24,392 bases of DNA from a virus. A program made the position numbers and the translations under genes. The notes under the pieces are model-generated. The model ran no database searches. It was not told the DNA's origin and was given only the letters and a program-made list of their open reading frames with translations. The stretch lies in IMG/VR virus record IMGVR_UViG_3300037156_000417, positions 1 through 24,392 of that record. The stretch is one strand, 5' to 3'. Positions 3,996-17,607 of this stretch are shown here, in pieces (position 1 is the first letter of the stretch; each line of letters opens with the position of its first letter).

Positions 3996-6900
3996 TTAGG
4001 CGGCGACTACGGAGCCACTACATGAAGAAATCCAGTGCTGGCTGTCGAAGAAGACCTCCACGCCACTTCCGGCTCCTGCCGCTTCAGTGGGTTTTCGCCC
4101 GTTTGATGCGAAAGCCTTGGCCCCCGCTGACCTACCGGTTGGCAGATTCACAACGGTATAAGACGCCAGTACGAGAGGCCCCGAAAACCGCGGCGAAACA
4201 GCATTTGTCCGAAAGAGTTCGCGCCAGAACGAGTTGCCATCCGACATGACATGATAACGGTCATTCAAATTAAGAACGACAGGACCACAGTCGATTCCGT
4301 CTGTTCCACTCGTCAGGATGCTGACTGCGCCTGCCCCAATCACCGAAAATGTAAATCCGGTTCCCGCCGCAACAGTGCTCGCCGGTGGTAATGTGATCGA
4401 GTAGGGGGTGGCACCTGTCAGGAAAATCATCATCCCTGCGGTGTAATTCGGGACCGAGTTCGAGCTCGAAAACTGTTGTGACCAGCCTACAGAGATACCT
4501 TTTCCCACTATATAAGTAATAGTACCCTGATGCCATTGAAGAGTACCAGTTGCACTGTCATATGCCAACGTATTACTGTTCGTGCCCTCAAAGGCGATTG
4601 CCTGGCCGGCGGACATTTTGATAACCGGAGCATTGTTGATCGCCCGCGCGAAGGTCGTATCTAGCACGGCATTTGAAAAAGGGATACAAATGCTGAAGAT
4701 TGTTTTGGCACTTCCCGCACTGGTGCCAAGATTTACGCCAATTATCGTGCCCACCTCGACGGGCGGACCGGACGAGTTGGATTGACCAATGACAAGACTT
4801 TGGATGCACCGGACGTTGGCGTCGTCCAGCCCATTGCCGTACCAGTCCATTTCGACTGTGAGAGATGCATTTGTCACGCTCGACGGTTGGCCCGTTACGT
4901 CGTGGTATTCGATACAGGCCGCCCAGAGTTGTGGTGCAGGTAAAAACGAACCGTTGGATCCGGTCGCCGCTGATTGCCGGATCGTCTGGATGTAGCGGCC
5001 AACATGTTGAGCCGGGGTCGCGGCATAGGGGGTCTGGGTTCCAGCCCAGATCAAGCGATCGAGACCTCCCCACACATAAGTGCCAGGGCTGTTATAGATA
5101 ATCGTGTCGGCGCGAACGTTCGCCACGACCACGCCATTGGTCCCGTTATTGTGATTGACGATATAGGAGGACTGATTAACCGCAAAATCGGTCGTCTGCG
5201 ACGCACCTTGGGATGTTGTATAACCAGAAGGCGCGTTGCCGACGACAAACCCCGGCAACATAAGATTGGTCGGGCCTCCGCCGTTCGGGATGGCCGCGCC
5301 AAGGGGTGTCCCGTCAGGCAGCACTGTTCCATCAACCATCCACTTGACCCGCTTTGTGAGGGAGATTCCCCAGCCGCCCGGGTCCTGTAGGACAGTTGTG
5401 CCATGCGGAACGTAAATAGCGCCACCCGCCGGCGCGGCTTGGTATGCTGCCCGGAAAGCGGCCGTGTCGTCTGTTACACCGTCGATTTTGGCGCCGAATG
5501 GCGGCAGCATCACGTTGATGACACCCTGAGAATTGGGGTTTGCATCAACGTATGACCTTGTAGCTGCGTGCAAAGGAGTCGTTGGCACGCCTGCAAGGGT
5601 AAGCATCCCGGTCAGGGAGCCTCCCGACCGAGGTAATGTGCTTGCGACCTGTCCATCAACATATTGCTTGGTAGCCCCATGCAGCGCTGCTGTCGGAGAT
5701 GCGGCCAATGACAGCAGTCCGGTTAGCGATCCACCCGTGACTGGGAGTGCCGTGCCGATCTGCGTATCCACATAGTGTTTGGTAGCTGCCTGTCCGGAGT
5801 TAATCGGGTCTCCACTAAGTGTAAGATTTCCCGTAAGGCTGCCGCCGGCCCGTGGCAGCGAGGTAAGGACCTGCGTGTCGACGTAGTTTTTTGTGGCAGC
5901 CTGAGCCGATATCACCGGGTCGGCTGCCAGGATTAGTGTGCCGGTCAGGGTGTCGCCGGTGCGTGACACCTTCGTATCAGCATATTGTTTCGTCGCAGCC
6001 TGGGTTGCGATAGTGGGGGTGCCTGCAAGAATCACCGGCCCTGTGAAGGTGCCGCCCGCCGTGGTTAACGCTGTCGAAAACTGATTGTCGATATATTGCT
6101 TCGTTGCCGCTTGCAGTGGAGCTGTTGGGTTTGACGCTAAATAGAGGGCCCCTGTTAAAGTATCACCGTTGCGCATGAGGTGCAGATCGACATACTGCTT
6201 TGTAGTTGCCTGCAATGGTACCGCGGGATCAGCTGCCAACAGCAGCGCTCCAGTCATCGATGACCCGGATCGAGAGATCGACCCCGCGGCCTGTGTGTCC
6301 ACATAGTTCTTTGTCGCGGCTTGGGATGTCAGCACTGGATCTGCCGCCAAGATCAAGGCTCCGGTCAGCGTATCGCCTGTCCGTAGAATTCTCTGATCGA
6401 CATATTGCTTTGTGGAAGCTTGGGCATTGCTGGTGGGATCGGATGCCAGGAACAAACCGCCAGTCAACGTGCCGCCGGACTTCGGCAAGGATACGGAAAC
6501 CTGTGTATCAACATAGTTCTTTGTCGCTGCCTGCAACGCAGACACAGGGTCTGCCGCCAGAGCAAGCACACCCGACAGGGTGTCGCCCGTCCGGGCCAAC
6601 TTTAAGTCGGCATAATTTTTGGTTGATGCCTGCAGGGAGACTATGGGGTCAGCGCTTAAGAGCAGAATTCCAGATAGGGAACCACCGGCTGTCGGCAGCA
6701 TGCCCGCAGCGATGGCATCCGCATATCCCTTCGTCGCGGAGTCCAATGGGTGCTGTGGAGCCGCCGAAAGCGTCAATACTCCGGACATTGACCCACCGGA
6801 CAGCGGCAAGGCGCTGACGACCTTCTGGTCGATGTAGGCTTTGTTTGCCGCGTGTCCTGACGCGGTGGGTACGTCGATCAGGGTAAGATTGCCCGTCACG

Positions 6901-7376
6901 GTTCCCCCCGAAACCGAAAGCATGTTCGCCGTCAGTTGGGCAAGCGACTGACCCGTGCTCGTGCCGGTTGGCGTGACCAAAGCCTGCGATAGATCGATAT
7001 TCGCGATCTCTGAGAGACCATTCAGGAGTTGACCATATGTAACGGCAACATTCGTACCGGCCTGCGACATGGAAATCAAATCGCCACTTGCGGGCACAGT
7101 TCCGGAAGGAAGTGCCGTAACGACGAACGGCGAGGCGATTGCCGCCAGCGTAGAACCGTTGAAGCTGAGATTCTGGCCGACCGTAATAACTTGCGGAGAT
7201 CCCATGCCCGTCCCAATCCGACCGAGCAATGAACCTGCGGGTAATGTTAGTTTTGACTGGGAACCATTTAGAATCTGAGCGCGTGTGACTTTCCGTGCGA
7301 TGCCCGCCTGGCTAACAATGAATTCGTCAGCGTCAGAGGCCGAGTTGGCGGGAGCAAGTTCATCAATTGTCGGCAT
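3996..7376 (-). CDS. Tailspike/tail fibre with heptad-like repeat array and pectate-lyase-type beta-helix start
   Basis: A 1126-residue protein, the largest in the window. I chose the ATG at 7376 over one 24 nt upstream because GGAG lies 10 nt before it and the resulting N-terminus (MPTIDELAPANS) matches that of the FnIII fibre. Domains: N-terminal fibre modules with two S-Q-A-G motifs (about 1-175); twelve tandem 33- or 37-residue repeats of the ATKNYVDTQ/GGSLTG or RTGDTLTG type (177-604) plus a partial thirteenth; a pectate-lyase-superfamily signature at 625-659 (FGAKIDGVTDDTAAF, then IYVPHG); about 430 further beta-rich residues; and a C-terminal tip rich in Gly and aromatics (last 34 residues). 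The repeats are known from trimeric phage tail fibres. The lyase-type region suggests a beta-helix that could bind or cleave polysaccharide, but I could not identify catalytic residues. Confidence 0.9.
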   Translation of the reverse strand: MPTIDELAPANSASDADEFIVSQAGIARKVTRAQILNGSQSKLTLPAGSLLGRIGTGMGSPQVITVGQNLSFNGSTLAAIASPFVVTALPSGTVPASGDLISMSQAGTNVAVTYGQLLNGLSEIANIDLSQALVTPTGTSTGQSLAQLTANMLSVSGGTVTGNLTLIDVPTASGHAANKAYIDQKVVSALPLSGGSMSGVLTLSAAPQHPLDSATKGYADAIAAGMLPTAGGSLSGILLLSADPIVSLQASTKNYADLKLARTGDTLSGVLALAADPVSALQAATKNYVDTQVSVSLPKSGGTLTGGLFLASDPTSNAQASTKQYVDQRILRTGDTLTGALILAADPVLTSQAATKNYVDTQAAGSISRSGSSMTGALLLAADPAVPLQATTKQYVDLHLMRNGDTLTGALYLASNPTAPLQAATKQYIDNQFSTALTTAGGTFTGPVILAGTPTIATQAATKQYADTKVSRTGDTLTGTLILAADPVISAQAATKNYVDTQVLTSLPRAGGSLTGNLTLSGDPINSGQAATKHYVDTQIGTALPVTGGSLTGLLSLAASPTAALHGATKQYVDGQVASTLPRSGGSLTGMLTLAGVPTTPLHAATRSYVDANPNSQGVINVMLPPFGAKIDGVTDDTAAFRAAYQAAPAGGAIYVPHGTTVLQDPGGWGISLTKRVKWMVDGTVLPDGTPLGAAIPNGGGPTNLMLPGFVVGNAPSGYTTSQGASQTTDFAVNQSSYIVNHNNGTNGVVVANVRADTIIYNSPGTYVWGGLDRLIWAGTQTPYAATPAQHVGRYIQTIRQSAATGSNGSFLPAPQLWAACIEYHDVTGQPSSVTNASLTVEMDWYGNGLDDANVRCIQSLVIGQSNSSGPPVEVGTIIGVNLGTSAGSAKTIFSICIPFSNAVLDTTFARAINNAPVIKMSAGQAIAFEGTNSNTLAYDSATGTLQWHQGTITYIVGKGISVGWSQQFSSSNSVPNYTAGMMIFLTGATPYSITLPPASTVAAGTGFTFSVIGAGAVSILTSGTDGIDCGPVVLNLNDRYHVMSDGNSFWRELFRTNAVSPRFSGPLVLASYTVVNLPTGRSAGAKAFASNGRKPTEAAGAGSGVEVFFDSQHWISSCSGSVVAA
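5565..6848 (-). repeat. Twelve-unit tandem repeat array inside the tailspike gene
   Basis: The array encodes residues 177-604 of the tailspike. Units begin with A/S-T-K-x-Y-V/A-D and run, in order, 37, 37, 33, 37, 33, 37, 33, 37, 33, 37, 37 and 37 residues. The short form carries RTGDTL where the long form has SLPRSGGSL. Units 3-10 therefore form four copies of a 70-residue (210-bp) pair at 5787-6626. At DNA level, the segments coding KNYVD or KQYID start at 5881, 6091, 6301 and 6511, exactly 210 bp apart. Copies have diverged at many third positions, so the array is not freshly duplicated. Confidence 0.9.
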
Positions 7377-7392
7377 GGATACTCGTTCTCCG

Positions 7393-7414
7393 GTCCCCAT
7401 GATTTTCTGGGGAC
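7393..7414 (-). promoter_or_regulatory. Hairpin in the leader just upstream of the tailspike ribosome binding site
   Basis: A perfect 6-bp GC-rich inverted repeat (GTCCCC/GGGGAC) with a 10-nt loop sits in the 98-nt gap between the adaptor stop and the tailspike start. Its 3' arm on the coding strand is followed almost at once by the GGAG ribosome binding site. No T-run follows, so it does not look like a terminator. A role in mRNA stability or translation is possible but unproven. Confidence 0.35.
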
Positions 7415-9417: not shown

Positions 9418-10101
9418 TTAAATGATCCGTAGCCAGGCCACTGCATTGACGGGAAGAAGACTGGATAAAGTTGTCTGAATGTCTGCGTCGGTTACGTGCC
9501 CCGGCAGAAGAGAAAGGTCGATATAGCTGATCGCACCCTGACCGTATCCCCCGTTAGACGTGCCGTAACCCGCCAACATGCCGACACCCGGGGTCGCTGG
9601 ACGCCTAGCCGTAACAAAGAACTGGAGCGGTAGCTTCAGACTTCCCCAACCGCCAGTGAGACCATAAGCCATCCCGGTGCCTGGTATATTGGACATTCCC
9701 TCCGAGGCACCATACGCACCTGTGTCCATGCAATTCGCAGGCTCGAAAATGGTCGGCGGGGCACCAATAAGGTACTCTAGTCCGTCAGATACGGCGTAGC
9801 GTGTGGCAGCCTCTCGCAGCAATGCTGCTTGAATGCGACTCCTGTAGGCGAAATCTGCTTCATTCGTCTTCCGATCAAGCTTGTGCCCGAAGTAATCACT
9901 TGCGATCAGATCAAGCCATTTGTCGGTAGCTGTCGCGAGTCGGGTTTGCGTGATTACATAAGTAATTAAATTGTAGAGCCAAACCCAGGGCGTAGCGATG
10001 CTGGTCAGCAAAGCATCTAGATTGGGGCTTTGCTCCGAGAACCAACGTTTCGGAAGAACCGTCCGCAATCGGGAAATGAAATCGGAGAGGTCACCCGTCA
10101 T
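9418..10101 (-). CDS. Baseplate wedge protein, gpI-like by position
   Basis: A 227-residue protein that directly follows baseplate J and overlaps it by 11 bp. The N-terminal half is helical and contains LPKRWF (16-21), repeated W residues around 39-42 and a TATDKWLDLIASDYFG stretch (57-72). This pattern is shared with gpI/YmfQ-type tail proteins that link the baseplate to fibres. The C-terminal half is rich in Gly and Tyr and ends DADIQTTLSSLLPVNAVAWLRI; the V-N-A-V-A-W ending is also common in this group. In P2 and Mu the same slot is filled by gpI or gp48, the last wedge component before the fibre genes. Assignment rests on position plus general resemblance. Confidence 0.65.
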   Translation of the reverse strand: MTGDLSDFISRLRTVLPKRWFSEQSPNLDALLTSIATPWVWLYNLITYVITQTRLATATDKWLDLIASDYFGHKLDRKTNEADFAYRSRIQAALLREAATRYAVSDGLEYLIGAPPTIFEPANCMDTGAYGASEGMSNIPGTGMAYGLTGGWGSLKLPLQFFVTARRPATPGVGMLAGYGTSNGGYGQGAISYIDLSLLPGHVTDADIQTTLSSLLPVNAVAWLRII

Positions 10102-11227
10102 TAGTGGTAACCATCACTTGGCCAGCCTTTATAACGGTTCCCGCGGGCACGGCAAGATCTGCGATCGAGCCGTTCAATTGAATTCCAATGACATTTTCTA
10201 TACCAGTGCCGGCAAGATAGGCGTTCTGAGCTACGCGGGTGACCGATGCGCTTCTGCCGATAGGTAGACTATTGAGGTAAATGGCAACGTAATTTTGAAT
10301 GCTTGGGATGCCAAGGGAGGCGGTCGTGGAAGAGTTCAGCACGGCTGTGAGCGAAACGCTCACAATCAGGACCTGCGGGGGCACAACGGCAAAAGTCGTT
10401 CCAACGGGACGCACAATATCGACGGCGGTGGCAATAGTCGACAGCAGATCGGAGGACGGATAGCCAGTTCCATCATCGACGATGACCAGGAGAGAGCCGA
10501 CTTGCGCGGTTCCGTCGGGGGCAGTATTTTCCTCAATTGCTACATCTAGGCCCTGCTGAATGTTAGCGATCGCGTTTTGTACCGCAGTGAGTGTCGCTCG
10601 TGATCGACTGGCCAAAAAGCTTTGAAATCGCTTTCGAAATGCCGGGTCGCTTTCGGAATTGGCCCCATCCGAGATTGGGTTTGCGTTGTTGACCTGATCG
10701 ACGCCGGGTAGAGATGCTGCGATTACGGTTATCGTACCCGCCAGGACGTTGCCCATCGATCCGCCAGCCGTGCAAACCACTGGTAAATCAGCCGAACTCA
10801 CGCCGACGGGCAGGACGTACGCTGAAACACTGGGCTGCCAGATTGAAAGCGACCGATCTTGTGTGACGGAAAAACTCAGAGACCCGTCAGTTGTCTTGAC
10901 CGTCGTCCCGATTGGAATAGTAGCGGACAGATTGTTTACAAACCGCGAAAAGGTTACAATGCCCGTGGATGGGACTGCCGGAAGGCGCGTCAGCCCAAAA
11001 TCCAGCATCCAGGAATCCAGATCGGATCCGTTGGATGTTGAGGCCCGAGTAGATGCCAAAACCTGAAGGACAAGCCACTGCAACCAAAGAACGACAGAAG
11101 CATTTGCCTCGAATATAGCACGAACGACGGAGCCGACCGATACGTCAACTAGGCTCGAAGCAGAACTTTGCAGTGCTGCCCCCATGTCCTCGACAAGCTG
11201 CGAGAACGCCTTGAGATTCAAGTTCAT
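10091..11227 (-). CDS. Baseplate J-like protein
   Basis: A 378-residue protein of the baseplate J family (related to P2 gpJ, Mu gp47 and the T4 gp6 core), which forms the wedge ring around the hub. Visible family traits are a helical N-terminus ending in GSDLDSWMLDFGLTR (67-81), a central beta domain with IPIGTTVKT, then GSMGNVLAGTI, and SDPAFRKRFQSFLASRSRATL (about 193-213), a typical J-family helix. A C-terminal PPQVLIVSVSLTAVL domain follows. Length is somewhat over the 300-residue P2 protein but usual for the wider family. The start ATG lies 6 nt after the stop of the gp25-like gene, and the end overlaps the gpI-like gene by 11 bp, so the wedge genes are probably co-translated. Confidence 0.93.
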   Translation of the reverse strand: MNLNLKAFSQLVEDMGAALQSSASSLVDVSVGSVVRAIFEANASVVLWLQWLVLQVLASTRASTSNGSDLDSWMLDFGLTRLPAVPSTGIVTFSRFVNNLSATIPIGTTVKTTDGSLSFSVTQDRSLSIWQPSVSAYVLPVGVSSADLPVVCTAGGSMGNVLAGTITVIAASLPGVDQVNNANPISDGANSESDPAFRKRFQSFLASRSRATLTAVQNAIANIQQGLDVAIEENTAPDGTAQVGSLLVIVDDGTGYPSSDLLSTIATAVDIVRPVGTTFAVVPPQVLIVSVSLTAVLNSSTTASLGIPSIQNYVAIYLNSLPIGRSASVTRVAQNAYLAGTGIENVIGIQLNGSIADLAVPAGTVIKAGQVMVTTNDG

Positions 11228-11610: not shown

Positions 11611-12126
11611 CTAGTCCAAAGGAGATGGTGCACTGGTTGTTCCGTTTGGCGCCGAATGCGTGTGAGAATTGTAGTGCGCTCGCAGGGCTGACAGAGGTCC
11701 ATGCTGGTCGTATACATCGCCTTGGACATGAAGGTCACCGTTTATGCGAATGGTCCCATCGTTGCAGAGTTTGAGGAAGCTGCCACTCTGGTGCATAAGC
11801 CAAAACTCGCCACCTGGCGCCGCCGGCGGCATTTGCTTATTCGAAAAGCTTCGTCCAATGATGATGCCCTGCTCTACATCACCTTCGTGTGGAACTAGAA
11901 GCACCTGATCACCCGGATTGGGTGGGCACACCATGCCCCATCCGCTTCCGACCCACTGTGATAATACTGGAAGCCATCCGGATAAAACGCCGTCGGGCTG
12001 TATAAGCACACGAGCGGTGCCTTTTTGAGAATTCACCGATGTTACGATGCCAAATTTTATCTGTCCCGACGATTGATCCAGGCTTGCTGCATGAGATTTT
12101 ATCGCGTTCGATAGTCTTTCGATCAT
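11611..12126 (-). CDS. Baseplate spike protein, gpV-like
   Basis: A 171-residue protein of the baseplate assembly protein V group, the membrane-piercing spike at the tail tip. An OB-fold occupies roughly 22-95: FGIVTSVNSQKGTARVLI, SGWLPVLSQWVGSGWG, and PNPGDQVLLVPHEGDVEQGII. A triple-stranded beta region with the repeating IRINGDLHVQGDVYD follows (about 127-141). The end has H-T-H at 155-157 followed by SAPNGTTSAPSP, the known spike-tip pattern in which HxH residues of the trimer hold an iron ion. GAGGA lies about 4 nt before the ATG. It fits the expected trimeric needle on the hub protein encoded upstream. Confidence 0.92.
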   Translation of the reverse strand: MIERLSNAIKSHAASLDQSSGQIKFGIVTSVNSQKGTARVLIQPDGVLSGWLPVLSQWVGSGWGMVCPPNPGDQVLLVPHEGDVEQGIIIGRSFSNKQMPPAAPGGEFWLMHQSGSFLKLCNDGTIRINGDLHVQGDVYDQHGPLSALRAHYNSHTHSAPNGTTSAPSPLD

Positions 12127-13209: not shown

Positions 13210-13413
13210 TTATTGGGGCCCGATACCGTCGGAGAAAATCGACGAAAACGGAGGGATCGCAATCTCATTTTGGCCGGAGAGCATCGGGTCGATCAGATTA
13301 TTGGCCCGCGCTATATTGGCCCATTGCAATGCGCTCCCGAGTTGTCTGGCGGCAAGTTCGAACAAATTTCCGCCGATCGTGGTTATCGTCTTCACGTCAG
13401 TTCCCTGAGCCAT
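13210..13413 (-). CDS. Tail protein X with LysM domain
   Basis: A 67-residue protein consisting almost entirely of one LysM-like domain: an early strand (KTITTIGG), helix with NLFELAARQLGSALQWANIARAN, then NLIDPMLSGQNEIAIP. P2 gpX homologues have this size and lie just before D; they are thought to dock the hub or baseplate rather than to bind cell wall. The start overlaps the upstream gene by 17 bp and the stop TAA is immediately followed by the ATG of the hub gene. Confidence 0.85.
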   Translation of the reverse strand: MAQGTDVKTITTIGGNLFELAARQLGSALQWANIARANNLIDPMLSGQNEIAIPPFSSIFSDGIGPQ

Positions 13414-14131
13414 TCAGATTTGTTCCGATGCGGCCTACGTAAGATCCAGCATTGACCGCCGCCGCCAACAATCCCGCACTGCTTACCGTCGCGGAGAGCA
13501 TCAGGCTAAGACTGTCAGGGTCGGCGTTTGTTCCCACCGGCGCACTAAGCTGTGCGGACTGTAGGGTGATTTGGCTATTGATGGCGTCTAGCGTGACCCC
13601 AACCGCAGCGACGGCCTGTGCCTGGTCCGATGTGCCGGTCGTCAACGCATTCGTATTGGAAAGGGCGGTTTGCAGCGAAGCGAGCGAGATCGTTGAATCG
13701 GCGACCGCGGACAATGCGTTCCCAAAGTCCGCCGATATCAAAGCCGACAGGGTTGACATCTGCGTGGTCGCTGCTCCGGCTTGATGGGCGACGACGCAAC
13801 TCACCTTGTAGGGAATCCACCAGGGGCTGTGATAGTCGGCAACGAAGCTCTTCACGATGACTCGATGTCTGAATGATCCCCAGGTCAGCCACACAATTTC
13901 GCCCGATAAGCGTAGGTTGTCGAATGCTCGGACCCTGGATTCGGCGTTGGCTCCGGAAAATGTTCCCTGAAACGCCACCTCGCCGTCGTCCGGCCCGAGC
14001 CGCTCCACAATCCTCCGGCCACCAGATAAATTGTGGACCGTCAACCTGTAACGACCGCCAAAGCGGACCGAAGATGGGATTTCGAAACCTTGAAGGCCTA
14101 TGGGTCCGATTTGGATTGGAGAGTCCTGCAA
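13397..14131 (-). CDS. gpU-like tail/baseplate protein
   Basis: A 244-residue protein between the tape-measure slot and protein X, the place of gpU in P2. The first 120 residues carry a recognisable prophage pattern: GPIGLQGFEIPSSVRFGG, then GGRRIVERLGPDDGEVAFQGTFSG, then WGSFRHRVIVKSF and WWIPYKVSCVV. The remainder is Ala/Ser-rich and probably helical. The start is TTG at 14131: an in-frame TGA lies only 3 nt further upstream, and no ATG gives the conserved N-terminus. GGAAG lies about 11 nt before the TTG. The function of gpU-type proteins is in tail completion or hub assembly. The exact family assignment is less sure than the position. Confidence 0.68.
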   Translation of the reverse strand: MQDSPIQIGPIGLQGFEIPSSVRFGGRYRLTVHNLSGGRRIVERLGPDDGEVAFQGTFSGANAESRVRAFDNLRLSGEIVWLTWGSFRHRVIVKSFVADYHSPWWIPYKVSCVVAHQAGAATTQMSTLSALISADFGNALSAVADSTISLASLQTALSNTNALTTGTSDQAQAVAAVGVTLDAINSQITLQSAQLSAPVGTNADPDSLSLMLSATVSSAGLLAAAVNAGSYVGRIGTNLNGSGN

Positions 14132-14178: not shown

Positions 14179-15042
14179 TTAAAAAGGTGCAACCCGGCTT
14201 CGTGGTATGGTAGCTCGAGGGTCTACGCCGGTCATGCCAGTGGCGGGCTTTCCCAACGCTCGTTCCAGATGTTGCACGGTCCATCGTCCAAGCGCCGAGC
14301 CGTCGATATGCAATGTCGAAACGGATGACCTGATGCGTTTGGACTGATCGCCCGCTGTCGTCGTCGCATCCCGAGCCGGTGAGGAGGACGGATATTGGTC
14401 GGTAGGACCTTGGTCCCCAGTAGGATTCTCGCTTGGCAGTTGGTGGGGGGGGACAAAGGTAATTTCACCATTATCCTTGATAGTTGGCTGCGTATCCGGA
14501 TAGGGTTCAAATTCCCGGAAACTTTGGCCAAGCGAAGAAGCATGGATCGGTGCGAGTGGGATGGATTGTTTTGATCCAAATCCAATATTGTCTAAACCGC
14601 CAATCAATTGATTTTTCTTTTTGAGAGTAAGAAATTCTTGTCTGGCGGCGACCTTATGCTCGGTGTGATTTTCGAAAGCCTGCCGCGGTTTCGCAATAAA
14701 ATTCGAATTCGATACCAGCCGCCACGGCGAGAGGGCGCTAGTCGGTGGGGACGCAGTCGGACTTACGAAACGACCAACGGTCGTCAAGCCCGGAATATTA
14801 ATAAGCGATGCCGCTCGCTTAAGCATCGGAAGCGACAATGGCTTGGAGCCACTCGATCGTGCGGAGGTGGTGCGGTCACTCCGGGGTGGCAGGATGCCTC
14901 GGCTTGCAGTCTCCAGATCGGATGCCAACAAACCGCGGCTTGGCCGAGTGATTGTCGGCGGCGCCATGAATGATCTTGGAAAACTTACTATCCGTTGTAG
15001 ACCAAGGAACCAGGCGATCCGTTTGGCGTCTGCCTTGAGCAT
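14179..15042 (-). CDS. Protein in tape-measure position; short and disordered-looking
   Basis: A 287-residue protein between the tail chaperone and the gpU-like gene, where a tape measure is expected. It starts with a basic N-terminus and is rich in Pro, Ser, Arg and Thr, without the long helices or transmembrane segments usual in tape measures. A conserved-looking C-terminal motif (DGSALGRW at 247-254, then GMTGVDPR at 269-276) resembles endings I recall in prophage tail proteins of Alphaproteobacteria. AAGGGGG lies 6 nt before the ATG, one of the best ribosome binding sites here. At about 1.5 angstrom per residue it would set a tail of only some 43 nm. It is either a shortened tape measure or a separate tail protein; I cannot decide from sequence. 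Confidence 0.55.
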   Translation of the reverse strand: MLKADAKRIAWFLGLQRIVSFPRSFMAPPTITRPSRGLLASDLETASRGILPPRSDRTTSARSSGSKPLSLPMLKRAASLINIPGLTTVGRFVSPTASPPTSALSPWRLVSNSNFIAKPRQAFENHTEHKVAARQEFLTLKKKNQLIGGLDNIGFGSKQSIPLAPIHASSLGQSFREFEPYPDTQPTIKDNGEITFVPPHQLPSENPTGDQGPTDQYPSSSPARDATTTAGDQSKRIRSSVSTLHIDGSALGRWTVQHLERALGKPATGMTGVDPRATIPRSRVAPF

Positions 15043-15078: not shown

Positions 15079-15264
15079 TTATCGCGTACTTGTCATGGGC
15101 CGTGCCCACTCGAACGCCGGCCAATCAAACGTGTGGCCCTCGAGGGTTCCAAGGGCGATGACATAAGCGGCCCTTTCAGTGGTGGAAAGTGAGAACGCAA
15201 CGTCGAATGGCACCCCGTTCCGGATAAGGTACAGGCAGTCAATCAGGACTGGGTGCCGGGCAAG
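15079..15264 (-). CDS. Minus-one frameshift extension of the tail assembly chaperone
   Basis: An open frame of 61 codons plus TAA, in the -1 frame of the chaperone and not among the larger open frames. Ribosomes that slip at the GGGAAAC site would decode it after residue 114 and yield a 175-residue fusion, next to the 120-residue zero-frame product. The extension reads LARHPVLIDCLYLIRNGVPF and so on, and ends FDWPAFEWARP. The FDW...W motif is typical of gpG-T/E+E'-type extensions that recruit tail tube subunits around the tape measure. Independent initiation is unlikely: no ATG or ribosome binding site lies near its 5' end. Confidence 0.82.
   Translation of the reverse strand, partial: LARHPVLIDCLYLIRNGVPFDVAFSLSTTERAAYVIALGTLEGHTFDWPAFEWARPMTSTR
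15209..15257 (-). promoter_or_regulatory. Frameshift-stimulating RNA pairing downstream of the slippery site
   Basis: GGCACCC (coding strand, 15257-15251) and GGGTGCC (15215-15209) form a perfect 7-bp stem that starts 6 nt after the slippery heptamer, the spacing usual for -1 frameshift stimulators. The 35-nt loop contains the zero-frame TGA and a smaller inner AGTC/GACT pairing. Structure is inferred by eye only. Confidence 0.65.
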
Positions 15265-15605
15265 TTTCCCACATTTGACTTCAGATCGACGGCTTCTTGC
15301 TGATCTTCGACCGCATTGGCGACCGCCGCCAGGCCTTCGTCACCCAACCGATCAATCAGGTTTTCGATTTGCAGCTCGGTCGCTGGTGGCGGTACGGGTA
15401 TCCCATCAATTTCCAGAACCGAGAACGCCAAACCCGCCATGGACAGCCAGGGTTCATTTTGGGCCAGGACTGGACCAGCGGCCTTGAAGAGCCTCAGGGT
15501 ATCAAGTGCCGTGAGACGTCGCAGGGTCAGGCGCCGCCCTTTTCCGTCGACAGCAGCAAAGGTCTTGACGGACGCTCTTACAATGGTTTGTGAAGGGGTG
15601 GTCAT
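15243..15605 (-). CDS. Tail assembly chaperone, zero-frame product
   Basis: A 120-residue protein between tail tube and tape-measure slot, the position of lambda gpG or P2 gpE. N-terminal beta segment (KTFAAVDGKGRRLTLRRLTALDTLRLFKAAG), hydrophobic middle and acidic helical C-terminus (DRLGDEGLAAVANAVEDQQEAVDL) are typical of these chaperones, which keep the tape measure soluble and bring in tube subunits. The ATG shares its A with the TGA of the tail tube gene (TGATG), so translation is coupled. The last 6 codons lie beyond the slippery site. The protein is made in two lengths if the frameshift operates. Confidence 0.85.
   Translation of the reverse strand: MTTPSQTIVRASVKTFAAVDGKGRRLTLRRLTALDTLRLFKAAGPVLAQNEPWLSMAGLAFSVLEIDGIPVPPPATELQIENLIDRLGDEGLAAVANAVEDQQEAVDLKSNVGNLPGTQS
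15264..15270 (-). promoter_or_regulatory. Slippery heptamer GGGAAAC
   Basis: The heptamer reads G_GGA_AAC in the zero frame of the chaperone gene, which is the X_XXY_YYZ form that allows both tRNAs to re-pair in the -1 frame. It is close to the GGGAAAG site of lambda G-T. It lies 7 codons before the zero-frame stop and 6 nt before a 7-bp stem, and the -1 frame is open after it. Confidence 0.82.
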
Positions 15606-16033
15606 CAGATCCGCCGCTTCCGGGTCGCATAGAACTCAAGTTTCTGCTTCACGCTAGAATCGCCCTTCCAAGTGCCAGCGCTGGTCAGTTTGAATACCAC
15701 GCCGTCGAACTGATAGGTCGAAACAGAGCTGTCCGTCTCGGTGATGTACTGATACATCGTACCGGGTTGGGCACCACCCCCATTGTAAAAATCTTGCTCG
15801 AGAGAGGAGATGAAGTCATCCAGCGCAGAAGTTCCTCTCTCAACCTCAAAGCTTCCTTCCCAACCCTTCGGAAGTTCGGCCCCAAGCTGGGTTCCATCAA
15901 GCCGGCTAATCCGAACTGGACTCGTGAGTTGCCGGCTTTCGAAACCGGTGACGTGACTGAGGTCGACTCGTCCGCCGGGACCCATCACTACCAGTTGAGT
16001 GTCACGGCCGATCGAGAATGCTGTCAATGCCAC
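15605..16033 (-). CDS. Tail tube protein
   Basis: A 142-residue protein immediately after the sheath gene, as in all P2-like tail clusters. The sequence is beta-rich, with GRDTQLVVMGPGGRVDL near the start, a middle helix (ALDDFISSLEQDFYN) and a basic ending FYATRKRRI, as seen in many prophage tube proteins. The start is GTG at 16033: AGGAG lies 8 nt before it, and the nearer ATG at 16038 is out of frame and stops after four codons. Many copies polymerise into the inner tube through which DNA passes. The stop overlaps the chaperone start by one base. Confidence 0.85.
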   Translation of the reverse strand: MALTAFSIGRDTQLVVMGPGGRVDLSHVTGFESRQLTSPVRISRLDGTQLGAELPKGWEGSFEVERGTSALDDFISSLEQDFYNGGGAQPGTMYQYITETDSSVSTYQFDGVVFKLTSAGTWKGDSSVKQKLEFYATRKRRI

Positions 16034-16044
16034 TGCATGATCTC

Positions 16045-17607
16045 CTAGTTAACCTGACCCGTGGGCAATGTCTGTCGAGAGACTTGTACGGTCTGCCCCC
16101 CTTCGACATTGACAATGAACCGCTCATTGATCGCCTGATATTGGATCTGAGAGTCTGACTGGACGTAGCCCAGGCCAGTGCGGGAAAGTGGATTATTGCT
16201 CGTATCGCAGATGACGTTGAATGGCAGCGAGCCGTCGGTGCTGCCGAGCAGACCTTGTCCAAACATGTTATTCAGAAACGACAATTGCGTCGCCCTGATC
16301 TGCTGGAACAGATTACTGTTGATAACTTGTCCCACATATTGGCCCATGCCTGCAGCCAATGTCTCGGCAATGTAATTGGTCAGACGAGTATAGTTATCCC
16401 CATCTATCGCTGCGTTCGACGACGTATTGTTTCCACCGCGGACGCCCCAATACGAGCCGCCGGGCTGAGGATTGCAGATAAGGTCAAGACCAGCACCCAG
16501 AAGTGCGCTCAGGTCGGCCGATGAATACGCTGTGTTCTGACCAGAACCGGGGGTTCCGGTGCGTTGGCTGCCGATGACCCCATATATCTGCTTATTGAGG
16601 CTGGACTGTTCCGGTGACAGATTTGCCAATCGACCGGCCGCGAAGCCTTGCGGCGAAACAAGACGGACAGTATTGTTGACTTGGTCGGACCACCACAGCC
16701 AGTCGCCGAACATTAACTTTGTAGCATAACTGTCTAAACCCGCCGCCGCCATAGTTGCAACGGCGTTCGTGATGGTATCCCCTGCAGGCGTCGTCAGGAT
16801 CATGTATATCCCTTCGTCGAGCCCAAAACTCGCCTGGGTGGTCCAAGTCGAGGAACCATCGCAGTCTGCGAGCAGCCCAAGGCCACAGCCTTGTCCCCTC
16901 AACGCGTACATTCCAGTGCGACCGGACATGTCGGCACCGACCAATTGATTGCCGCCGACCTGTGTCGCTCCATCCGACCCAGCGCTCGATGCGCCCAGGC
17001 TCAGCGAGAACGGTGCAGGGGATGCGGTCGTCCCCCCTGTGCTTGCTATGATCAGGAGGGATGGCCCGCGCTGTGGCCCTAAGCCGGAATTGACCGCTGC
17101 GGCCAGACCCGTCCAAAAAGCCGCGCCGTTACCGATAAGTCCATCGTAAATCTCAGGTTCAAACCCGGACAAGAGGACCGACAGCCTCCAGGTGCTGGGT
17201 TGTGTGCCCGCCCCAAGTGTCAGAGTGATGTTGTTGCCGAGAGAGCCAGTATAGATCGCCGTAAAACTCGCGTTGGTGCCCGGAACCGCAGTGTATGCAG
17301 CAGCGTCGGTGCCGTCTGTTACGCGCACGCAGCGGAAATTCTGAGCGCCTTGTTGGACCGCAGTTGCGACCTGCGTACCCATATCGTACTTCCGGGGCAC
17401 GATCGAGCCAAATTGCTGCGCATAGTCGGCCATCGACGCGACGATCGCCGGTTCATCGACAGGACCCCAGGATGCGGTCCCAACGACACCAAGGATGTTC
17501 GTCGGAACCCCGTTCAAGATCAAATTTTGCGGCGGAACGATCTGTACATATAGATCGGGCACAATCAGCGATGTTGTATTGACGCTGCCTTGCTGAGAGA
17601 TTGGCAC
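16045..17607 (-). CDS. Contractile tail sheath protein
   Basis: A 520-residue sheath subunit, which defines the phage as a myovirus. Family traits are the N-terminal PDLYVQIVPPQN and TNILGVVGTASWGPVDEPAIV (37-57), a following AQQFG and GAQNFRCVRVTDG segment, a large beta insertion domain, and the C-terminal sheath domain with RLTNYIAETLAAGMGQYVGQ and ending in GGQTVQVSRQTLP. Length is a little above the P2 FI protein (396) and usual for longer family members. The start is GTG at 17607, with AAGG about 10 nt upstream inside the last codons of the small gene before it. It assembles around the tail tube and contracts on infection. Confidence 0.93.
   Translation of the reverse strand: MPISQQGSVNTTSLIVPDLYVQIVPPQNLILNGVPTNILGVVGTASWGPVDEPAIVASMADYAQQFGSIVPRKYDMGTQVATAVQQGAQNFRCVRVTDGTDAAAYTAVPGTNASFTAIYTGSLGNNITLTLGAGTQPSTWRLSVLLSGFEPEIYDGLIGNGAAFWTGLAAAVNSGLGPQRGPSLLIIASTGGTTASPAPFSLSLGASSAGSDGATQVGGNQLVGADMSGRTGMYALRGQGCGLGLLADCDGSSTWTTQASFGLDEGIYMILTTPAGDTITNAVATMAAAGLDSYATKLMFGDWLWWSDQVNNTVRLVSPQGFAAGRLANLSPEQSSLNKQIYGVIGSQRTGTPGSGQNTAYSSADLSALLGAGLDLICNPQPGGSYWGVRGGNNTSSNAAIDGDNYTRLTNYIAETLAAGMGQYVGQVINSNLFQQIRATQLSFLNNMFGQGLLGSTDGSLPFNVICDTSNNPLSRTGLGYVQSDSQIQYQAINERFIVNVEGGQTVQVSRQTLPTGQVN

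Follow-up and report, generated by a model that had tools for sequence, protein, structure and literature searches.

How many proteins does the tail assembly chaperone gene of this virus encode? The window, that is, the whole 24,392-nucleotide stretch of DNA analyzed here, carries this gene on its minus strand, and a preliminary description had proposed that ribosomes slip into the -1 frame close to its 3′ end. Based on a comparison of the locus with its relatives, we consider it highly probable that programmed -1 ribosomal frameshifting lets the gene encode two tail assembly chaperones, at a G_GGA_AAC site that a stem presumably assists. Recoding of this kind is known; what appears to be new is a conserved, covarying stem at a fixed spacing, together with a heptamer that re-pairs non-cognately in the A site and a Mu-like tail module. 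The features at the center of the question are the following:

15243-15605, minus strand: zero-frame tail assembly chaperone open reading frame, 120 amino acids, ATG start, TGA stop
15264-15270, minus strand: slippery heptamer G_GGA_AAC, in frame, conserved in 139 of 149 loci
15079-15264, minus strand: -1 frame extension, 61 codons plus TAA, giving a fusion of 175 amino acids

Read on the minus strand, GGGAAAC (15270 to 15264) falls in the X_XXY_YYZ register of the 120-residue open reading frame, since its first G occupies the third codon position (counted from the ATG at 15605, its offset is 335, and 335 mod 3 = 2). Six sense codons (LPGTQS) lie between the heptamer and the zero-frame stop, TGA at 15245-15243. 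After the heptamer, the -1 frame runs for 61 codons, LARHPVLIDCLYLIRNGVPFDVAFSLSTTERAAYVIALGTLEGHTFDWPAFEWARPMTSTR, and ends in TAA at 15081-15079; the predicted products have 120 residues (zero frame) and 175 residues (fusion). Register, position, the open frame and both product lengths agree with the preliminary description. No other X_XXY_YYZ motif is found in the usable overlap, from 72 nt upstream of the heptamer to the zero-frame stop, where the -1 frame is open. The count of GGGAAAC in the window does not depart from chance (2 found, 3.08 ± 1.72 expected), and the weight of the argument must therefore come from comparison with relatives. What rises above chance is the conservation of the heptamer in place and frame, and its tie to a downstream stem.

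Among 149 loci with a homologous extension, 139 have GGGAAAC, nine have AAAAAAC and one has neither, so that an X_XXY_YYZ heptamer in the zero frame is kept in 148 of 149 loci spanning Acetobacteraceae prophages and viral contigs. Loss of the heptamer or of the open -1 frame in close relatives had been named in advance as an outcome that would speak against frameshifting; the retention seen here favors it. Scanning viral contigs for the zero-frame protein yielded 54 loci, two of which run off the contig. The remaining 52 comprise 50 with GGGAAAC at the same place, one with AAAAAAC (L054) and one without a heptamer (L055), which is the most distant match of this first scan (38% identity). With the extension as query, genome contigs gave 50 loci, nearly all titled Acetobacteraceae, Rhodopila or other Rhodospirillales or Proteobacteria MAGs and including Swaminathania salitolerans and Rhodopila globiformis DSM 161, the latter with a single copy of the locus; the corresponding scan of viral contigs gave at least 501 stretches, of which 80 were kept. 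A DNA-level search in phage records found no match, and tblastn matched phiKX1 and phiKX2 only. In relatives at a greater distance, some of them carried by plasmids of Gammaproteobacteria and Betaproteobacteria, the heptamer's place is taken by AAAAAAC, AAAAAAA, AAAAAAT or AAAAAAG.

The position of the zero-frame stop among the 149 loci is either directly after the heptamer or six codons later. In L042, L044, L061, L069 and most AAAAAAC loci the stop abuts the heptamer (AAC followed by TGA, TAG or TAA), and competition with release factor could thus be part of the signal. The only close locus without a heptamer, L102 (around 8001), retains the conserved extension and has also lost the 5′ arm of the stem described below; it possibly uses another shift site or carries a relaxed gene. 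In L185 (Rhodovastum atsumiense plasmid RHOApd, 6339), a homologous chaperone gene has CCCTTTG six codons before its stop and no GGGAAAC-type site, and this heptamer may be a further, independent slip site in use.

The extension itself bears the marks of a translated protein. With the stem arms and the overlap set aside, its -1 frame is free of stops and has a pN/pS of 0.16, versus 1.39 and 3.05 for the other frames, a pattern that indicates purifying selection in the -1 frame only. Mean identity per column among 48 extensions is 76%, and an AlphaFold2 model (pLDDT 81) has three helices and a beta hairpin. The extension gave no significant family in Pfam or PHROG and no match below E 0.5 in fold searches. 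By hhalign it pairs with a Komagataeibacter-type set at a probability of 98.9% and with lambda T, P2 E′ and Mu 41′ at probabilities of about 0.1% each; because the lambda, P2 and Mu templates were single sequences, these low values are weak evidence of non-homology. An alignment with gpE′ and gpT, suggested earlier as a check, thus detected no relation. The FDW-x4-W motif noted before is present (FDWPAFEW), but its description as typical of chaperone extensions finds no support, given that no relation to these three extensions emerged. A C-terminal extension reached by a frameshift near the 3′ end and conserved in relatives, as seen here, is what chaperones of the G/GT type possess. As anticipated, annotators have overlooked the fusion: the extension is a separate hypothetical CDS in phiKX2 and has no CDS in Rhodovastum and most Pantoea records, as read from an incomplete gene table.

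The second half of the signal, absent from the preliminary description, is a putative stem downstream of the heptamer:

15258-15263, minus strand: 6-nt spacer from heptamer to stem (ttgccc), same length in all aligned relatives
15250-15257, minus strand: 5′ arm of the putative stimulatory stem, GGCACCCA, with 7 of 8 pairs forming in the window
15217-15249, minus strand: 33-nt loop, in which as many as six additional weaker pairs, interrupted by small bulges, lengthen the stem
15209-15216, minus strand: 3′ arm of the stem, GGGGTGCC, within extension codons G17-V18-P19

The stem, GGCACCCC/GGGGTGCC, starts 6 nt downstream of the heptamer and closes the 33-nt loop. Its arms constrain synonymous positions: across 136 distinct extensions, Gly17 is GGG in 134 and Val18 is GTG in all, CGG and AGG are the sole codons for Arg3, and CAC encodes His4 132 times; the same amino acids elsewhere in these extensions use all their codons. 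Pairing holds for 98.7% of the stem cells in 134 close sequences, among which L091 shows the one double change, from C-G to U-A. The stem mostly persists with compensatory change in distant relatives, namely plasmids and phages of Pantoea, Aquitalea, Paraburkholderia, Rhodovastum and Komagataeibacter, and likewise in 109 further viral loci. Over 80 sequences at most 86% alike, pair 16-60 is CG in 64, AU in 11, GC in four and GU in one, and is never unpaired; pair 19-57 appears in the same set as CG, UG, GC, GU and UA. The first base of codon 4 (His, Asn or Asp) is tracked by the silent third base of Val18. For these two pairs, none of 500 shuffles matched the observed covariation score or number of double-changed cells. 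Relatedness is ignored in these shuffles, but a slid-register control that keeps it also stays far below the observed values. The inner extension of the stem to 14 pairs is above controls as well.

Relative to synonymous-codon shuffles, the mean z of the minimum free energy is -3.1 for GGGAAAC (129 loci), -2.3 for AAAAAAC and 0.0 for AAAAAAG, and at least seven of the eight stem pairs form in all 122 distinct GGGAAAC sequences and in 60 of 65 with AAAAAAC. A strict requirement for the stem with AAC can be ruled out, because L421, L422, L432, L228 and L054 have AAAAAAC and fewer than seven pairs. In a group of distant relatives (L293-L297, L423-L428), A_AAA_AAG is followed by a zero-frame stop one codon later and the stem is entirely absent. 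Folded as a single sequence, the 100 nt downstream do not stand out (z -0.40), and this result misleads when taken alone; the structure shows only through comparison. When the bare stem, with neither protein nor heptamer, served as the query for a blind search of viral contigs, a slippery heptamer stood exactly 6 nt upstream in 117 of 119 stretches among the matches listed; the 107 distinct ones among these matches divide into 83 GGGAAAC and 24 AAAAAAC, and some of the contigs overlap the earlier set.

The 6-nt spacer falls inside the range of 5-8 nt at which bacterial stimulators start after the heptamer (PMC4066793), and with covariation and synonymous constraint it gives the stem the properties of the downstream structure expected 5-9 nt from the heptamer in -1 programmed ribosomal frameshifting. 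An Rfam search with the stem returned no entry, and no consistent Shine-Dalgarno-like element is found upstream, where GGAG and AGGA are scattered and any motif occurs in at most 25 of 150 loci. We found no description of this stem in the literature, of which many relevant papers lie beyond our coverage, so that this absence is not proof. Site, frame, coding extension, stem and the linkage between them emerge from the comparison of relatives, and conserved site, coding extension and stem support the -1 frameshift as it was originally proposed.

It could be argued that the frameshift is real and that the stem serves another purpose, such as mRNA stability or binding of a protein. Relatives with AAAAAAG (L293-L297) and with AAAAAAC (L421, L422) presumably shift without this stem. 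However, the stem is locked at 6 nt from the heptamer, the two co-occur in the blind search (117 of 119 among the matches listed), and L102 lost heptamer and 5′ arm together; we regard a separate purpose as unlikely. Alternatively, the extension might be a small gene of its own with an internal start, for instance at the GTG codon of V18, which is invariant in 136 of 136 Acetobacteraceae-type sequences and preceded by GGAAC; the annotation of phiKX2 indeed gives the extension its own CDS. A start at this codon is ruled out, since distant relatives have GTT or GTC there, which are not starts and which match the pairing base in the other arm of the stem. Moreover, residues 1-17, upstream of V18, are as conserved as the rest and hence translated, and an internal start leaves no reason for keeping the heptamer, which makes a separate gene very improbable.

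Slightly less credible still is transcriptional slippage, in which realignment of RNA polymerase would open the -1 frame. Although runs of six or seven A occur at the slip site of distant relatives, the window and 139 of the 149 close loci have GGGAAAC, in which no base is repeated more than three times in a row, and a heptamer in codon register with a downstream stem at fixed spacing is a ribosomal signature. That the reads or their assembly are at fault, or that the gene has decayed and shifted frame by chance, has a negligible probability; nothing was found in its favor, and the relatives already refute it, given the same arrangement in more than 100 independent contigs, in cultured Rhodopila globiformis, in Swaminathania salitolerans and in phage phiKX2, and the pN/pS of 0.16 in the -1 frame.

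For programmed ribosomal frameshifting, we propose the following course of events. Most ribosomes would read through G_GGA_AAC and stop six codons later, releasing the 120-residue protein. The stem (GGCACCC/GGGTGCC, weakly extended inward) would impede the ribosome with GGA and AAC in the P and A sites, whereupon a fraction of the tRNA pairs would slip back to GGG and AAA, and the translation of 61 more codons would produce the 175-residue form. By analogy with lambda G/GT, the short form may serve as a coat for the tape measure protein, with the long form recruiting tube subunits; both would then be made at a set ratio and be needed for tail assembly. We infer the stimulation of slipping by the stem, its efficiency and the role of each product.

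Is the gene a tail chaperone? The surrounding tail module comprises:

16045-17607, minus strand: tail sheath (phrog_23, tail sheath, E 2.8e-46)
15605-16033, minus strand: tail tube candidate, 142 amino acids, in the position of Mu gp40 (phrog_12993, function unknown)
14179-15042, minus strand: candidate tape measure, 287 amino acids, by position only, no family match
11611-12126, minus strand: baseplate V / spike (PF04717, E 2.5e-10), downstream of the chaperone as in Mu
10091-11227, minus strand: baseplate J (PF04865, E 1.7e-33; phrog_6)

The zero-frame protein matches phrog_20383, whose function is unlabelled (E 7.8e-18), and weakly phrog_508, "tail assembly chaperone" (E 0.032). Its AlphaFold2 model (pLDDT 87.5) has as its best PDB fold match the HK97 tail assembly chaperone, 2ob9 (probability 0.91, TM 0.46/0.50, E 0.077), which is suggestive only. 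The gene sits between the tube and tape measure candidates, both assigned by position only, as a G/GT-type chaperone would. Fold match and position support the identity given in the preliminary description. The P2-like tail order that it also proposed does not hold: the sequence V-W-J-I-H-G upstream of the sheath, with D last, is not found here, and only the core of sheath, tube, chaperone and tape measure is shared with P2. Sheath, tube candidate, chaperone and 287-residue gene stand in the Mu order, and the hub, V and J and the W and I candidates all lie downstream of the chaperone, as in Mu.

The gene in the tape-measure position encodes 270-306 amino acids in most close relatives and 338-386 in a few; should it be the tape measure, an unusually short contractile tail would be expected. 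Two overlapping adjacent open reading frames on the minus strand, 13397-14131 and 13210-13413, match parts 3-206 and 258-312 of phrog_21362, so that a protein that is single elsewhere seems to be split here. A fibre-like protein of 1134 amino acids (3996-7400, minus strand) contains many imperfect repeats of the TKQYVD...GGTLTG type.

G_GGA_AAC is best known as shifty on mammalian ribosomes (a "mammalian-type" site). We tentatively suggest, as a possibility that falls somewhat short of probable, that in this lineage of proteobacterial contractile-tail phages a strong stem compensates for the poor slipping of bacterial ribosomes on the codon in the A site, mostly AAC, and that the stem was lost where A_AAA_AAG arose. 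If true, heptamer and stimulator would be traded against each other in evolution while one chaperone ratio is held constant. This idea rests on one event, because the AAAAAAG group consists of three distinct, closely related sequences. More broadly, phrog_20383, listed as unknown, gains a likely function and a hidden C-terminal half, and the extension defines a family without a library entry; the stem likewise has none in Rfam. About 200 distinct sequences with a fixed spacing differ naturally in heptamer, stem and stop position, and they can serve directly as a panel with which to study the use of G_GGA_AAC by bacterial ribosomes and the way in which phages hold the chaperone ratio.

Frameshifting in tail chaperone genes is established for lambda, P2 and Mu (Xu et al. 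2004, as cited in PMC5009743 and the Mu record). Lambda gpG/gpGT shares with our locus a chaperone between the major tail gene and the tape measure, the -1 direction and a C-terminal fusion extension, but its T region is longer (the annotated T ORF has 144 amino acids), with no detectable sequence relation to the extension described here. The lambda heptamer, G_GGA_AAG, differs from G_GGA_AAC in the last base alone. Nonetheless, the slip site is not lambda-like as had been supposed: the lambda A-site codon AAG re-pairs cognately, whereas AAC does not. Efficient heptamers in E. coli permit cognate A-site re-pairing, AAC to AAA being an example of a poorly tolerated change; AAC and other heterogeneous ZZN codons shift less well there, and G_GG.A_AA.C is absent from a selected list of efficient E. 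coli motifs, although the host ribosome here is not that of E. coli (PMC4066793). Signals of the IS3 family and dnaX likewise combine X_XXZ_ZZN with a hairpin that begins 5-8 nt downstream of it (PMC4066793); they reside in other genes, and the best known use A_AAA_AAG with cognate A-site re-pairing.

The same heptamer, or one of its class, is found at the chaperone genes of Caulobacter phages Colossus (GGGAAAC) and phiCbK (AAAAAAC) (PMC3556154) and of the haloarchaeal virus HCTV-1 (G_GGA_AAC) (PMC5009743), for which the available excerpts of the two reports describe no stimulatory stem. P2 gpE/gpE+E′ has the same core of sheath, tube, chaperone and tape measure, a -1 shift and a short extension; it differs in its heptamer (TTTTTTG), in an extension without detectable relation to ours, and in having V-W-J-I-H-G upstream of FI, whereas the baseplate genes here lie downstream of the chaperone. 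Mu gp41/gp41′ shifts by -2 rather than -1 and has an extension without a relation detectable by hhalign, yet its tail order matches throughout: sheath, tube, chaperone, tape measure, N-like, hub, V, W, J and I.
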